In this document: positions 17,792 to 24,881 of the stretch, one piece after another
Numbering within the stretch: position 1 is the first letter of the stretch
Layout of the letters: each line of letters starts with the position of its first letter
Origin: Chitinophagales bacterium
GTDB lineage: Bacteria; Bacteroidota; Bacteroidia; Chitinophagales; JADIYW01
Reading direction: 5' to 3'
Assembly (NCBI GenBank): GCA_019694955.1
Contig: JAIBAX010000012.1
Coordinates: forward strand, 1 to 64,000
Length of the DNA: 64,000 bases
Position numbers and translations under genes: made by a program
Notes under the pieces: model-generated
The model's database searches: none
The model's input: the letters and a program-made list of their open reading frames with translations, nothing else
Told to the model about the DNA's origin: nothing

Positions 17792-18656
17792 GTTAGAGAT
17801 ACCATTTAAAGAATATAGGATTGCGACTTTGTCATGCCAATATATCTTCAAACTCTGTTTCGTTAGAGATACCATTTAAAGAATATAGGATTGCGACAGA
17901 ATATAACATACAAATTTCTTTTAGTTCATCAGAAAGTTAGAGATACCATTTAAAGAATATAGGATTGCGACTCCAAATCGTCAAAATCTGGTACGCCTTC
18001 CGGAATGTTAGAGATACCATTTAAAGAATATAGGATTGCGACTTTTTTGTCCTTGACCAATTCTAGTCCAAGTTTGTGTTAGAGATACCATTTAAAGAAT
18101 ATAGGATTGCGACTCTAGTCTGGTTAATATTAAACTTTGTATATAGTTAGAGATACCATTTAAAGAATATAGGATTGCGACAAATTCCACTTTCCATCTT
18201 TTAAACAGAGAAGGAGTTAGAGATACCATTTAAAGAATATAGGATTGCGACTGAATTGTGTGCTGTATTCTGTTAAGCCAGACTGGGTTAGAGATACCAT
18301 TTAAAGAATATAGGATTGCGACAATTTTTTGCAAACTCATACTCTTTTTTAAAATTTGGTTAGAGATACCATTTAAAGAATATAGGATTGCGACTTATTA
18401 TGTTTCCTGATTTTGGAGAAAATACAACTGTTAGAGATACCATTTAAAGAATATAGGATTGCGACGCATATATTGCCGAGAATTGGTGATTTTCAATGGA
18501 TTGTTAGAGATACCATTTAAAGAATATAGGATTGCGACTTAAAAATTTTAAACCCTTGGTCCGTCTGGGGGTTAGAGATACCATTTAAAGAATATAGGAT
18601 TGCGACACATAATAATGTTTGTCAACATCATTTGAAAATAAGTTAGAAATACCATT
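17792..18656 (+). CRISPR. CRISPR array: 12 intact 36-bp repeats, 12 spacers, truncated 13th repeat
   Basis: The 36-bp repeat begins GTTAGAGATACC and ends ATAGGATTGCGAC and is identical at 17792, 17862, 17936, 18007, 18078, 18146, 18216, 18287, 18359, 18430, 18503 and 18571. Spacers are 32-38 nt (34, 38, 35, 35, 32, 34, 35, 36, 35, 37, 32, 35), all different. A 13th copy at 18642-18656 retains only its first 15 bases with one substitution (GTTAGAAATACCATT). The repeat ends in ATTGCGAC, comparable to the 8-nt ATTGAAAC handle left by Cas6 in type I-B and type III systems, and the 35-nt spacers fit a class 1 type. That typing is inference. No cas gene is present within the window on either side, so any processing proteins must be encoded elsewhere. 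Confidence 0.97.
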
Positions 18657-18892: not shown

Positions 18893-20764
18893 CTATTCAC
18901 TCTTAACAATAATCGGTATCTCAATATTTATTTCCTTGGTAAAGGCATTTGGGGAACTCTCCATGATATCTCCCTGCAAAACGTCAATAATGGTTTTTAC
19001 AGCAGAAAAATCAGGATGTGATAAGGTATAACTGGCTCCTTGTGTGTTGAGTTTAATGATGGCTTTTTCCGTAGCATAGAAAACAATCAACCGCAACTCC
19101 AAGAAGTCGATTTCCCTGCTCCAAACCTCCGTCAGCAAACCTTTAGAAATGCGGTATATGGTACTCTCGGAAATGCTGTTTAACGAATCAGGACGTATGT
19201 TTTGTCGGAAGATGTGCTTAATTTTCTTCTTTTGTGACAATTGCTCCAAATAGTCCCTGATCGTTATTTCCAAACCATATCTTTCCAAAGATTTTTCCCT
19301 CAGGTTATGCGACAGATTGCGCACTTCGGTGCACTGGTTATCGATTTTCTTTAGGATAGGTCCTAATTTTCTAATCAGCTCTAAATCTTCTGTTTCTGAC
19401 ATCATCAGGCTAAACTTCATTTTTAATGCCGCCAATGATATCCCGATGCCATCATGTAGTTCTTCGGCAATGCGCCAGCGCTCCTTCTCTCCTCCTTCCA
19501 TCAGGTTGAAACCATATTTTTTGTTGAGCGTACTAAGCACTGCCTTGTTTCGCTTACTTGCTTTCAATAGCGCCTTCGAACGATACAGCACCAAAAAAAG
19601 GATTAACATGGCAACCACCCATCCACTGGCATACATGGCTGTAAGGTATACTTTACTCGCCGGAGAAACCTGATTTAGAAAAAATGGATTGGTGATGATA
19701 AGGCTCATAATCAGATAAAATGCCATCGACATGAAAAACAAGGCCTTTTCCTTGATTTTTAAAATAATGACGACTAAAAAGCAAACCACTACAAATGTAT
19801 GTACCAACAGATAGACATGTTGCGAAAAAAGAAATATCCGCTGCCCACCCAATGGCATCCATTGATAAAACAGGTTCAAAAATATAAATGTTATTGACGT
19901 ACCATACAGCAATCTCCAAGCCCAAATCCATTTTCCAACTTTCATCCTGAATCGCACAAATTGACTTAAGAAATAAATAGTAGAAATTAGAAACAGCTGC
20001 AAGCATATAGCTGTTACAATCACTTGCGTATCCGGCTTTTCCATCCAAAAAAACTCAAGCCCAATACCTTCATATAAAAAATAATAAAATGTCCCTATGA
20101 ACACATGGATGGCGTATACCATATAATTCCAAATTTTCATAATAACGGAAAGGTATATGGCGATTGAAAAGAATGAAATGACTACTCCTATCAATATTCC
20201 TTTGCTCAGTTCAAGTATTCGCGACTGATGATATTTTTTCTTGGCATCCCAAATGGTTACGGGAAAATTGAGGAGGTTTGCCTGCGGAAATATCTTAAAG
20301 TAATAGGTATATGTTTTTCCCGAAGGTATGGACAACTCGAACAAAAAATTCCTGTCGTAGAGTTGACGGCTGATAAAGCCCCTACCATTTCCGGTATAGT
20401 ACTCCCCCACCAATCGTTTGTTTTCGAAGGTTAAGAAATCCAAACTATCAATTTGGAAATTAGTGACTTCCAGTACCAGTTTCCGGCTATTCTGACCGGG
20501 ATTATTAATAGAAAACTTATACCAATAACACTGATTGGGCCAAACAAATCCCAATGGTGTATTTCTGGCGGCTTGCCACGGTATTTTCGCATCATGAATA
20601 CGGTCAATCGTTACACTACAAGAACTGTCCGTAAACAACTCCACCTCATTTTGTAAGTACAGCGAAGTGAAATGCCTATTCAAAACAATCGTTTTAGACC
20701 ATGCAGTTGCTGACCACCCCAAATGGAGTAATAAAAAGAGTCCGAAATAAAACACCCGCCTCAT
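18893..20764 (-). CDS. 7TM-DISM sensor with intact HisKA_3 phosphoacceptor but degenerate ATPase domain
   Basis: A 623-aa sensor. Residues 1-23 are a signal peptide; about 30-185 form a beta-rich periplasmic 7TMR-DISM extracellular domain; seven membrane helices span about 188-395. The cytoplasmic part has a classical HisKA_3 dimerisation box, EKERWRIAEELHDGIG, with phosphoacceptor His437 (codon 19454-19456), followed by the usual NLSHNLREKSLERYGLE region. The ATP-binding domain is not functional by motif: where kinases show RI.QE..TN..KHA it has YRISKGLLTEVWSREI, and there is no DxGxG or GxGL box; only the final strands (DVLQGDIMESS, INIEIPI) are left. It overlaps by 4 nt the upstream gene, a second 7TM-DISM protein with the opposite defect. 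I infer that it is phosphorylated in trans by that partner. No response regulator is adjacent. Confidence 0.88.
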   Translation of the reverse strand: MRRVFYFGLFLLLHLGWSATAWSKTIVLNRHFTSLYLQNEVELFTDSSCSVTIDRIHDAKIPWQAARNTPLGFVWPNQCYWYKFSINNPGQNSRKLVLEVTNFQIDSLDFLTFENKRLVGEYYTGNGRGFISRQLYDRNFLFELSIPSGKTYTYYFKIFPQANLLNFPVTIWDAKKKYHQSRILELSKGILIGVVISFFSIAIYLSVIMKIWNYMVYAIHVFIGTFYYFLYEGIGLEFFWMEKPDTQVIVTAICLQLFLISTIYFLSQFVRFRMKVGKWIWAWRLLYGTSITFIFLNLFYQWMPLGGQRIFLFSQHVYLLVHTFVVVCFLVVIILKIKEKALFFMSMAFYLIMSLIITNPFFLNQVSPASKVYLTAMYASGWVVAMLILFLVLYRSKALLKASKRNKAVLSTLNKKYGFNLMEGGEKERWRIAEELHDGIGISLAALKMKFSLMMSETEDLELIRKLGPILKKIDNQCTEVRNLSHNLREKSLERYGLEITIRDYLEQLSQKKKIKHIFRQNIRPDSLNSISESTIYRISKGLLTEVWSREIDFLELRLIVFYATEKAIIKLNTQGASYTLSHPDFSAVKTIIDVLQGDIMESSPNAFTKEINIEIPIIVKSE

Positions 20765-22728
20765 ACCTTGTCGTTCGTTTGTAAAGGAATCGTCATTTCT
20801 ACTACTGTGCCGAGAGAGGTGCCGGAAATTTTAAAGATACCGCTCAATCCTTTTACCCTGGATTCCATATTAGACAAGCCAATACCCTTTCCCTTGAAGG
20901 CTTTTACTGAATCAAATCCCTTTCCATTGTCTGCAACACGCATGTATAATTGTTTAGGCTGTATCTCTACATCCACTTCTACCTTGTCTGCTTGTGCATG
21001 CTTTAAAATATTGGTTGCCAGCTCTTGCGCAATTCGGTATACATTTGACTTCTGCAAATTGGTCAGTGTAGCAAAGGGATGAATATTTTCATGGTAGTGA
21101 AAATCTAATTGTGCCGTTTCGGCCATTCGCTCAAAAACATTCTTCACCGCTGAATGGATAGCCATCTGTTCAACTTCCATCGGGAGAACATCCGAAGACA
21201 AGTTTTCCAGATCTTTTAATATTTGATCTATCTCGGATAACCCACTTTGCAATTCCATTTTGGTTAATGTATCGTTTGTCGCCATAAAAGCATCGTTTGT
21301 TATCTTCTTGAGTTCCAATAAATCCTCCTTAATGCGATGGTCCATTTCTGATTTCAATAATTTCCGTTCCTTCTCTTGTCCGTCTATCATCGCATTGATA
21401 GACGTTCGCTGGAGGACGGTCAGTCTTTTATTAGACATATTGTATTCCAAATTCACCTTCTTGAAATAATTAGCCAAAAAAATGGAAACGATGATTACTT
21501 GGGAATAATCAATAAAGAAGAAAATATTGGGTAAAAACACATGTGTTCTTACAATATTAAGGTCGTACAAGTTCGCACCCGGAAAAAGTACTTTATATAC
21601 TTTTGCATTCAGAAATAAAAATAGTACACATTTCACCACATGTAAAAATGGTCCAATAAATGCCCAAAGCACGTCTTTGCGCTTCAATTTAATCCATGTA
21701 AATAAAATCAGGATTAGAAATACGATGCCATACAACACATAAATGAGGTTGAGGATATAAAAAGTAATCCTAAAAGGCAGGCGAATGAATGACGGTTGAA
21801 AGCTTAGGATATTATTCGTCAGGAAGATGATGACTAAAAAGACATTCACCATATTAAATACCCTGTTAAACCTCGGATAATGTATGGTAGTGGTATAGTA
21901 TTTCTTGAGGAAAATATTGGTGATGAACATAAATAAAAAAGCCACCAGTGTTGGCATCAGCTTCTGAATAAAGGGATAATCCGGCCAAAACATTTGAAAC
22001 CCGATGCCAGTTTCAGAGATATAATACAAGAATATTACGAGATTAATGCCCAGATAGTACAGAAATATCCTATTCTTATAAAACTGATACAGGCAAATGA
22101 TGAACAGCAGAAATAAAAAGAATATGCCTGTAAACATCCCTAAGTATAAAAAGTCATTCTTGGCTCTTTTATAGAAAAAAGACTCCGAAGAAAGATATGC
22201 TGTGAGTAGAACCGGCTCCTGCTGTGCCATGATATGTATCCAAAGTGCACAATCACTGCGCGCAGGAACCATTAGCGGAAAGGAAAAATTTCGTGCCGAA
22301 AAGCTGGTCTGTGGATAAGAATAGTTATCACCTACCGGATTAAAGTTGAATGTATCTTCAGGGGTAGTAAAGTAAACATGCACCTCATCTGTATTCGGGT
22401 TTCCTAAGGTTAAGAAATATTTGAATGGTTGGTTTTCCATGTTTTTTACCGGAACATATAACCAATAATTATAGGGATCGAAGCCTATGAGTATTTCCTT
22501 CATTGGAAAATGTGTCTTAAACTTCGCCGTTTTTAGTTGTTCAATTGCTTCAAAGTCAACACTATTTGACTCATCACGCCAATAATATAAATCTTGCCCG
22601 ATGCGCTTATCCTTCCAATTCCTATCTAATTTCAATGTGTCTAAAGCCTGCACCAACGGTGTTTGGCTGATGAAGACAACTATCAAAAATAGTTTTATAC
22701 TTCGGATATGTAGGAACATGGGCTTCAA
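20761..22728 (-). CDS. 7TM-DISM sensor with intact HATPase domain but D-H swap at the phosphoacceptor
   Basis: A 655-aa protein of the same build as its neighbour: signal peptide (1-28), 7TMR-DISM periplasmic domain, seven membrane helices (about 190-415), then a cytoplasmic module. Its ATP-binding domain is complete: N box RIAQELATNILKHAQAD, G1 box ADNGKGF, G2 box GKGIGLSNMESRV and a closing GTVVEMTIPL. The dimerisation helix reads EKERKLLKSEMDHRIKEDLL; aligned to the family ER.RIA.ELHD, the phosphoacceptor His is Asp463 and the following Asp is His464 (codons 21337-21342, GAC CAT confirmed on the sequence). Either His464 serves as a shifted acceptor or the protein phosphorylates its operon partner in trans. 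It follows the MmcQ/YjbR gene by 2 nt. Confidence 0.88.
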   Translation of the reverse strand: MKPMFLHIRSIKLFLIVVFISQTPLVQALDTLKLDRNWKDKRIGQDLYYWRDESNSVDFEAIEQLKTAKFKTHFPMKEILIGFDPYNYWLYVPVKNMENQPFKYFLTLGNPNTDEVHVYFTTPEDTFNFNPVGDNYSYPQTSFSARNFSFPLMVPARSDCALWIHIMAQQEPVLLTAYLSSESFFYKRAKNDFLYLGMFTGIFFLFLLFIICLYQFYKNRIFLYYLGINLVIFLYYISETGIGFQMFWPDYPFIQKLMPTLVAFLFMFITNIFLKKYYTTTIHYPRFNRVFNMVNVFLVIIFLTNNILSFQPSFIRLPFRITFYILNLIYVLYGIVFLILILFTWIKLKRKDVLWAFIGPFLHVVKCVLFLFLNAKVYKVLFPGANLYDLNIVRTHVFLPNIFFFIDYSQVIIVSIFLANYFKKVNLEYNMSNKRLTVLQRTSINAMIDGQEKERKLLKSEMDHRIKEDLLELKKITNDAFMATNDTLTKMELQSGLSEIDQILKDLENLSSDVLPMEVEQMAIHSAVKNVFERMAETAQLDFHYHENIHPFATLTNLQKSNVYRIAQELATNILKHAQADKVEVDVEIQPKQLYMRVADNGKGFDSVKAFKGKGIGLSNMESRVKGLSGIFKISGTSLGTVVEMTIPLQTNDKV

Positions 22729-22730
22729 GA

Positions 22731-23072
22731 TTAGAACCTTAATGCTTTAGGCAGCCCTTCTACCACTAACTTAAAAGAAATATCTACGAAGGTCAATATT
22801 TGGCTATCGTCCAATGTTCCATCGCAGATGATGGTGTTCCAGTGTTTTTTTGCCATATGATAACCCGGTTGTATGGCTGCATAATTTTCCCTGAGGGCAA
22901 TATTCTCATCCGGAAGGTTTTTGCAATTAAATTGCAACACATCTGTATCCAAAGGCAACAAAAGAAACATTTTCCCTTTCACCTTATACACGATAACATC
23001 CGGCCCGAAGGGAAATTCTTCTGTTACAAAAGGTTTTCTGATACAATATTCACGCAATTCCTCTATATTCAT
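22731..23072 (-). CDS. MmcQ/YjbR family protein
   Basis: A 113-aa protein of the CyaY-like-fold MmcQ/YjbR family. Recognisable features are the opening helix MNIEELREYCIRKP, EEFPFGPDVIVYKVKGKMFLLL, and the late motif AIQPGYHMAKKHWNTI (the Y.M.K.HW core). Members are often called DNA-binding, with little direct evidence. It is the first gene of the minus-strand operon with the two 7TM-DISM sensors (2-nt gap) and diverges from aceK with 48 bp between starts, so the promoter of both must lie in that short interval; a near-consensus -7 (TATTTTTA) sits immediately upstream of its ATG. Confidence 0.9.
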   Translation of the reverse strand: MNIEELREYCIRKPFVTEEFPFGPDVIVYKVKGKMFLLLPLDTDVLQFNCKNLPDENIALRENYAAIQPGYHMAKKHWNTIICDGTLDDSQILTFVDISFKLVVEGLPKALRF

Positions 23073-23120
23073 ACCCTAAAAATAAGTGTAATTTCAAATA
23101 TTCAGATAATATAATTTAAA

Positions 23121-24881
23121 ATGAATACCAACAACCTTACCAATCATACCAATACACCGCTGCCGGCATTAGTTGCAGCAGAGATTTGTCGCATTTATGA
23201 TGCCCTTTTGGCAGAATTCATGGAACTTACGTCCTATGGAAAACCTTATTTTGAGCAAAGAAAATTTGCAGAGCTCTTTCAAAAACAACAACAAAGATAT
23301 CGGCTTTATGGCGTTGCAGTAAAAAACTGTATTGCAGCCATTCAGCAAATTTTAGGCGCCGATATACAAAATGAAGCCATATGGGTACTCATTAAAGAAG
23401 CTTATTGCGAAATTATCAAGGAAAGGACATATAAACTGAATAGTGAAACATTTTTCAATTCAATCACCCGAAAGGTGTTTTTTGATAAAAGCTTTAACCC
23501 GGATTATGAATACTTTGATACCGATGATTATAAACCTGTTAAAGTACTTGAAGAAAAAGTATATAAAGAATTTATTATAAATCAGTTATCAGAAGATATA
23601 TTAATTAAAATTTTGCAATCCTTTGATTTTAATATTGATTTTGAAGATATTAAAAGAGATGCAAAACGAATTTTCGATGAAATTGCGCCAACCATCATTT
23701 TTCAAAAGTCGACCTTGTTTCTAGAGCGCATTGAATTTTTGAAGACGGTATTTTACAGGAATCGAGGTGCATACTTAGTGGGAAGGCTCATCTACAGAAA
23801 CTGGACTTTGCCCATCGTAATTGCCGTATTAAATGAAGAAAATGGCCTTTTTGTTGATGCCTGTATCTATAACCAAAGCGATATCAGTATTATTTTCAGC
23901 TTCACACGTGCTTCATTCTTTGCCTATACCAATCAACCTGCACAACTCATCGATTATTTAAAAGCGCTTCTCCCCTACAAAGCTGTCGGTGAATTGTACG
24001 ATTCAATTGGGTTTTACAGACACGGCAAAACGATTTTATACCGTGATTTGATGAACTACATCAATAACCATGAAGATCAATTCATTATTGCTCCGGGTAT
24101 CAAAGGGATGGTGATGTGTGTTTTTACATTAAAATATTACAATTTTGTCTTTAAAATCATCAAAGATAAATTTGACAACCCAAAAACCATCACTAGGGCG
24201 CAAGTAATCAAGAAATATGAAGAAGTAGAAATCAACGACCGTGTTGGGCGTATGGCTTTTGCACATCTTTTTGAGCACCTGGAGTTCCCCAGAAGACTCT
24301 TCTCGGAAGAACTCATTGAAGAATTAAAACTTGTTGCGAAGGAAACCGTAGAATTCAAAGACGATAAAGTCATTGTAAAACACGTCTATTTAGAACGAAA
24401 AATGGAGCCTTTGAATTTGTACATCGAAAAAGCCAACCCTGTAGACATCTGTCGGGTGATTGTAGACTATGGTTTTTGTGTGAAAGAACTGGCTGCCGCC
24501 AACATATTCCCCGGCGACTTGCTTATGAAAAATTTCGGTGTTACGAGGCATGGACGTGTAATTTTCTATGACTATGATGAAATTAGCCAGATTACAGAAT
24601 GTAATTTCCGCCGATTACCACAACCGGATGAGGATGGATACATGCCGGAAATTTCTGTCAATCCAAACGATATCTTTCCGGAAGAGTTTCGCAATTTTAT
24701 GGCACCGGACGGCCCAATCGGTTCCATATTCTTTGCTGAACACGATGAGATATTCGACCCGAAATATTGGCGTGATATTCAGAAAAGAATTGAAAAAGGC
24801 GAATACCTCAGCTTTTATGCCTATGACCAGTACAAACGATTCAAACAAATAGAAAGAATCAATCCGCTAAATCCTAGATAA
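23121..24881 (+). CDS. aceK: Isocitrate dehydrogenase kinase/phosphatase
   Basis: AceK reversibly phosphorylates isocitrate dehydrogenase, switching carbon from the TCA cycle to the glyoxylate shunt. The 586-aa product has the N-terminal regulatory half (LVAAEICRIYDALLAEFMEL) and the kinase-like C-terminal half with strongly family-specific strings: APGIKGMVMCVFTL around the ATP-binding loop, FKIIKDKF with the catalytic lysine region, NDRVGRMA, NIFPGDLLMKNFGVTRHG and VIFYDYDEI containing the acidic metal ligands. Length is normal for the family (about 570-600). It is not next to aceA or aceB, unlike the enterobacterial aceBAK operon. It converges on the ABC ATPase gene and ends in a bidirectional hairpin. 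Confidence 0.95.
   Translation: MNTNNLTNHTNTPLPALVAAEICRIYDALLAEFMELTSYGKPYFEQRKFAELFQKQQQRYRLYGVAVKNCIAAIQQILGADIQNEAIWVLIKEAYCEIIKERTYKLNSETFFNSITRKVFFDKSFNPDYEYFDTDDYKPVKVLEEKVYKEFIINQLSEDILIKILQSFDFNIDFEDIKRDAKRIFDEIAPTIIFQKSTLFLERIEFLKTVFYRNRGAYLVGRLIYRNWTLPIVIAVLNEENGLFVDACIYNQSDISIIFSFTRASFFAYTNQPAQLIDYLKALLPYKAVGELYDSIGFYRHGKTILYRDLMNYINNHEDQFIIAPGIKGMVMCVFTLKYYNFVFKIIKDKFDNPKTITRAQVIKKYEEVEINDRVGRMAFAHLFEHLEFPRRLFSEELIEELKLVAKETVEFKDDKVIVKHVYLERKMEPLNLYIEKANPVDICRVIVDYGFCVKELAAANIFPGDLLMKNFGVTRHGRVIFYDYDEISQITECNFRRLPQPDEDGYMPEISVNPNDIFPEEFRNFMAPDGPIGSIFFAEHDEIFDPKYWRDIQKRIEKGEYLSFYAYDQYKRFKQIERINPLNPR

Follow-up and report, generated by a model that had tools for sequence, protein, structure and literature searches.

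The window, the whole stretch of 64,000 nucleotides analysed here, belongs to a Chitinophagales bacterium. On its reverse strand lie two adjacent genes encoding membrane receptors with histidine kinase regions. The upstream gene encodes protein A, 655 amino acids long from a TTG start (an alternative ATG at 22719 gives 652), and the downstream gene encodes protein B, of 623 amino acids. The two reading frames overlap by 4 nt, as an earlier note, made from the letters of the sequence, had observed. The features of the pair are as follows.

20761-22728, reverse strand: protein A, predicted catalytic subunit; 7TMR-DISM receptor with an intact ATPase (CA) domain and without acceptor His
18893-20764, reverse strand: protein B, predicted acceptor subunit; 7TMR-DISM receptor with a HisKA_3 acceptor and a degenerate CA domain
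20761-20764, reverse strand: ATGA stop/start overlap of A and B, 4 nt; exactly the same overlap in 9 of 13 linked pairs
21601-22599, reverse strand: A, periplasmic DISMED2 and 7TM region (aa 44-376), by Pfam
21337-21348, reverse strand: A, EMDH (aa 461-464) in place of ELHD, with Asp463 in the acceptor column of the alignment
20995-21024, reverse strand: A, N box ELATNILKHA (Asn573); Asn in 14 of 14 A proteins
20914-20937, reverse strand: A, G1 box VADNGKGF (Asp600), by motif
20869-20892, reverse strand: A, G2 box GKGIGLSN, by motif
19583-20650, reverse strand: B, periplasmic DISMED2 and 7TM region (aa 39-394), by Pfam
19448-19462, reverse strand: B, ELHDG (aa 435-439) with phosphoacceptor His437; His in 14 of 14 B proteins
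18914-19228, reverse strand: B, degenerate CA domain (about aa 513-617); alpha/beta fold in the model, N, G1 and G2 residues absent

The earlier note had read the two proteins as complementary: B with ELHD and His437 and without N, G1 and G2 boxes, A with all three boxes and with Asp463 at the acceptor position (codons GAC CAT at 21342-21337 encode Asp463-His464). Both motif readings hold, and the profile searches that it had suggested agree with them. In Pfam, A of the window matched 7TMR-DISMED2, 7TM and HATPase_c (4.8e-10) and not HisKA_3; B matched DISMED2, HisKA_3 (3e-10) and, weakly, 7TM (21.5 bits, below the Pfam cut-off of 29), with no HATPase. The same division was found in the orthologues, with HATPase_c and no HisKA_3 in 13 of 13 A proteins and HisKA_3 and no HATPase in 11 of 11 B proteins, so that neither A nor B carries on one protein the two domains of a canonical homodimeric HisKA_3 sensor kinase. 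The similarity of the sensor parts was also borne out: 7TM is present in all 13 A and all 11 B proteins (E<=0.01) and DISMED2 in 11 and 10 of them, respectively, identifying both as 7TMR-DISM receptors.

Single-chain AlphaFold2 models (mean pLDDT 72 and 71) showed a CA-like alpha/beta fold in A and in B, and DesK was the first PDB match for the kinase regions of both. The model of B keeps the CA architecture and lacks the N, G1 and G2 residues; a normal ATP site in this model would have spoken against the earlier reading.

Upstream of A (22731-24881) there is a YjbR gene on the same strand, followed by a divergent AceK gene (isocitrate dehydrogenase kinase/phosphatase). This neighbourhood is common to the genomes of genus g3 and absent from genus g4. 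Downstream of B, at 17792-18606, we noticed a CRISPR-like array of 12 copies of the 36-nt repeat GTTAGAGATACCATTTAAAGAATATAGGATTGCGAC, spaced 68-74 nt apart; cas1 genes are located on other contigs (C5, C86), not beside the array.

Conservation of the split

Searches of 60 relatives detected the A-then-B pair in the window's family, f1, where 12 of the 13 genomes have it (G002 to G012 among them); it was not found in G001, an incomplete genome of this family. Two genomes of f15, another family of the same order, also have the pair, giving 14 pairs for comparison. Contigs with the pair come from differently named isolates and assemblies of uncultured Bacteroidota and Chitinophagales, making an assembly artefact very unlikely. 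In G007 the two genes lie on separate contigs, away from the ends (A at L067:8389-10338, B at L068:2967-4829), and both are retained.

The N-box Asn, the G1 Asp and Gly and the G2 Gly are present in every one of the 14 A proteins. In B, the N-box Asn is gone in all 14 and the G1 Asp in every protein with sequence at that place, and all 14 have the acceptor His with its following Asp; among A proteins the His occurs once, in G007. The ATP site and the acceptor His are thus found on different polypeptides, and this reciprocal pattern is far beyond chance. In none of the 14 pairs does each protein have both motifs, an arrangement that would have contradicted the earlier note. The nearest approach is A of G007, whose acceptor site reads His-Asp but which is without R431, R482 and H486 (B numbering), residues conserved by B and by complete kinases; its His-Asp may be a matter of chance or a remnant.

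Both genes are under purifying selection. Whole-gene dN/dS in two genome pairs was 0.08 and 0.25 for A and 0.05 and 0.13 for B, rough values in view of the large dS, and 0.08 in the pseudo-CA domain of B. Conservation mirrors the division: in genus g3, identity in the H box is 43% for A proteins and 87% for B proteins, in the N box 77% and 52%, and in the G1-G2 region 63% and 49%, respectively. Core positions of the DHp helices are hydrophobic in both proteins, and the acceptor-side residues R431, H437, D438, R482 and H486 (B numbering) have for the most part disappeared from A, the pattern that should be seen in a partner that still dimerises and no longer accepts phosphate. Private decay in the window genome is ruled out by the conservation of the split in 12 family genomes. 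A functionless tandem duplicate with two unrelated decays, a notion to which the recurrence of tandem HisKA_3 kinase pairs in the order lends some colour, is refuted by this distribution, by the low dN/dS and by the repetition of the pair in a second family, and we give it practically no weight.

The split is not a general trait of tandem kinases. In one collection scan, 80 of 85 other homologues keep both the His and the N/D residues, and nearly all proteins of the tandem HisKA_3 pairs checked in other parts of the order retain both functions; the exceptions are L347, which lacks the His, and L345, which lacks the G1 Asp. The L347 protein is the upstream kinase of a tandem in G023 (L347:2106-5963), reads LNN at the acceptor site and stands beside an otherwise complete partner; such a pair could represent an intermediate stage on the way to the split. 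In a scan of 398 genomes of the order, clear B-type proteins were found in the window's family and in G026, and G085, a genus mate of G026, holds one further pair. Elsewhere in the class, 395 genomes yielded no B-type protein at E<=1e-45, the six best outsiders being complete.

Origin of the pair and its candidate response regulator

In a tree of full-length proteins, A and B of the window's family form separate clades, and A and B of f15 group together; the AU test on these sequences did not reject a single origin (p-AU 0.195 and 0.256). We also built a tree from the sensor part, which does not carry the split trait. Here A and B of f15 are sisters (support 100/99), and the grouping of all A proteins, or of all B proteins, in a single clade was rejected (p-AU 0.0009 and 0.004). 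A tree of the kinase part without the motif columns joined all A proteins in 0 of 200 bootstraps. Sensor identity between A and B of f15 is 21-22%, and between f15 and the proteins of the window's family 11-15%. The sensor-only and kinase-only results thus speak against a single origin, which the full-length tree does not reject, and since the sensor-only trees reject it, the split probably evolved twice, with a second, independent origin in f15. Alternatively, gene conversion of the sensor region could account for the kinship of the f15 sensors, or an odd residue composition of the f15 rows for their placement in the tree. The comparison of orthologous pairs that the earlier note had called for therefore gives a complementary split that is conserved, selected and probably of double origin, and the apparent second origin suggests selection for a division of labour.

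The earlier note had also pointed out that no response regulator is adjacent. This proved correct: the upstream neighbours are YjbR and AceK, and a search of the window contig for GerE (NarL-type) regulators, with the LytTR type outside its scope, found none. The window genome has two HisKA_3 matches only, one of which is a complete kinase beside its own regulator on contig C67. It has three NarL-type regulators; one adjoins this complete kinase and two are orphans. The orphan on contig C103 (G000:C103:163825-164478) has a canonical receiver, with D-D, D, T and K present. Its orthologues, 55-65% identical, occur in 11 of the 12 pair-bearing genomes of the family, counting that of the window, and none was found in the incomplete family genome without the pair; the orthologous group stands alone in 10 of 10 genomes checked. 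By elimination and by co-occurrence, the latter confounded by kinship, the C103 regulator is the best candidate for the partner of the pair. In both f15 genomes a NarL-type regulator, not orthologous to the C103 regulator, lies tail-to-tail with B, 21-26 nt away, which supports the NarL class of the partner.

The second orphan NarL-type regulator (L239:3854-4504) is conserved in the family and has an atypical receiver, its first acidic residue being replaced by Ala. Near an orphan regulator, at L238:1777-2736, there are adjoining genes of 155 and 162 amino acids that by eye look like an Xre-RES toxin-antitoxin system.

A proposed mixed receptor complex and its alternatives

The family-wide split and its apparent re-evolution indicate that A and B most likely function only as a mixed pair. 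We propose, with good though not full confidence, that A and B form an obligate receptor complex, within which A would phosphorylate His437 of B in trans and B would signal to an unlinked NarL-type regulator. An ancestral 7TMR-DISM/HisKA_3 kinase would have been duplicated, and complementary loss of function would have produced A and B, which are probably co-translated. The two proteins would dimerise through their DHp helices, whose hydrophobic core is kept in both. A would bind ATP and phosphorylate His437, and B would pass the phosphate to the regulator encoded elsewhere, of which the C103 protein is the candidate; the pseudo-CA domain of B may be retained in a structural or regulatory role. 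A receptor unit would then combine a single ATP site and a single acceptor with two unlike sensor domains. With one ATP site and one acceptor per unit, output should need both subunits, and two periplasmic inputs could be integrated. The persistence of both genes in G007 despite their separation speaks for this proposal; the His-Asp of A in G007 and the precedent of ChrS/HrrS, discussed below, speak against it.

The alternative that fares best, though we consider it improbable, makes A a regulatory pseudokinase that acts on B as RetS does on GacS, binding ATP or B for modulation of B only, with His437 phosphorylated by another, complete kinase. Inhibition or tuning of a kinase by its heterodimer partner has precedents (RetS/GacS, ChrS/HrrS), and these genomes contain other complete HisKA_3 kinases, one of them in the window genome. 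However, the invariance of the N, G1 and G2 residues of A goes beyond what mere fold would require, we found no third kinase linked to A and B, and the complete HisKA_3 kinase in the window genome lies next to a regulator of its own.

Less probable again is that B serves its regulator as an ATP-independent phosphatase or phosphate sink and that A only tunes B. MaeK, with a degenerate CA domain and no nucleotide binding, still signals (PMC5457438). The phosphatase position of HisKA_3 kinases, where a role of Gln has been described (PMC5231405), holds I, A or S in 14 of 14 B proteins and neither Gln nor His in any, which argues against this reading and gives a weak hint that B may be a poor phosphatase, weakened by the 21 of 30 complete relatives that also lack Gln there. 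A phosphatase role of B would moreover leave unexplained why A has a perfect ATP site and a lost acceptor.

It is very unlikely that A phosphorylates a target other than His437 of B, either its own Asp463 or His464 or another protein, and pairs with B for sensing only. This reading draws on the His464 of the window protein, which follows the acceptor position by one residue. The acceptor column itself holds Asp463 in the window and D, K, K, H, E, D, T, N, G, E, D, N, D and Q across the 14 A proteins, eight different residues; the late His occurs in 2 of 14, and the sole conserved His in the cytoplasmic part of A is that of the N box. Asp463 and His464 are thus ruled out as alternative acceptors, and EMDH, being one of many ways to lose the acceptor site, has no meaning of its own. 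The earlier note had made EMDH a mark of the split; the complementary loss is conserved, but EMDH itself is peculiar to the window genome and incidental.

Taking the proposed A:B complex further, duplicated HisKA_3 kinases may, through complementary degeneration, have given rise at least twice in one order to obligate asymmetric receptor kinases, each unit being a two-input gate with one-sided output. We consider this about as likely as not. If A only donates and B only accepts phosphate, cis and trans action, dimer asymmetry and two-input sensing could be studied without mutants. The pair also carries a warning for annotation, where it would be listed as two incomplete kinases.

Comparison with known systems

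Bacterial receptor kinases are normally homodimers, and to our knowledge there are few reports of kinase heterodimers. RetS has a 7TMR-DISM sensor; GacS functions alone and is inhibited by RetS, and they are not known to form a tandem with complementary losses. RetS/GacS of Pseudomonas resembles A/B in being a heteromer of histidine kinases; PMC12675982 and PMC12189002 cite it as a heterodimer with one kinase inhibiting or tuning its partner. The kinases ChrS and HrrS also heterodimerise, transphosphorylation not being shown (PMC9491836). MaeK of Lactobacillus casei, whose degenerate CA domain binds no nucleotide, is like B in having the acceptor His and a CA fold without ATP boxes; it differs in belonging to the citrate family, in having no reported ATP-competent partner and in having its regulator in the same gene cluster. 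DesK of Bacillus subtilis, a HisKA_3 kinase, is unlike A/B a single homodimeric protein that carries the acceptor as well as the ATP site, and our literature search found nothing on cis versus trans action of DesK-type kinases.

The earlier note knew of no operon-encoded split pair of this architecture. The principle is in fact known, from FasB/FasC and CheA3/CheA4, and for a 7TMR-DISM or HisKA_3 pair our search, which reached few subscription journals, found no such case. FasB and FasC of group A Streptococcus are adjacent, co-transcribed membrane histidine kinases that form hetero- and not homodimers in two-hybrid assays; FasC is a proposed pseudokinase with the acceptor His, and FasB would supply the kinase domain (PMC12675982). 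Like A/B, they are an operon-encoded adjacent pair, one with the acceptor and the other with the kinase domain. They are, however, sensors with six TM helices, have the ComE-like FasA in their operon, and FasB has candidate histidines, whereas A/B are of the HisKA_3 class, have DISMED2 in both proteins, show a clean loss on both sides and have no adjacent regulator in the window; the pair has 7TMR-DISM sensors instead of the six-TM sensors of the FasB/FasC type, and YjbR and AceK as neighbours instead of a ComE-like regulator. CheA3/CheA4 of Rhodobacter sphaeroides is a split kinase of which neither protein autophosphorylates alone, and the same study estimated that 3.66% of SMART HisKA proteins are without a HATPase domain (PMC3591291). 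As in A/B, ATP site and acceptor His are on separate proteins. CheA3 and CheA4, however, are cytoplasmic chemotaxis kinases from which whole domains are missing (P1 in CheA4, P3-P4 in CheA3), whereas A and B, both full-length membrane receptors, have every domain in place and have lost only active-site residues. FasB/FasC and CheA3/CheA4 are the closest precedents, from which A/B differs in class and architecture.
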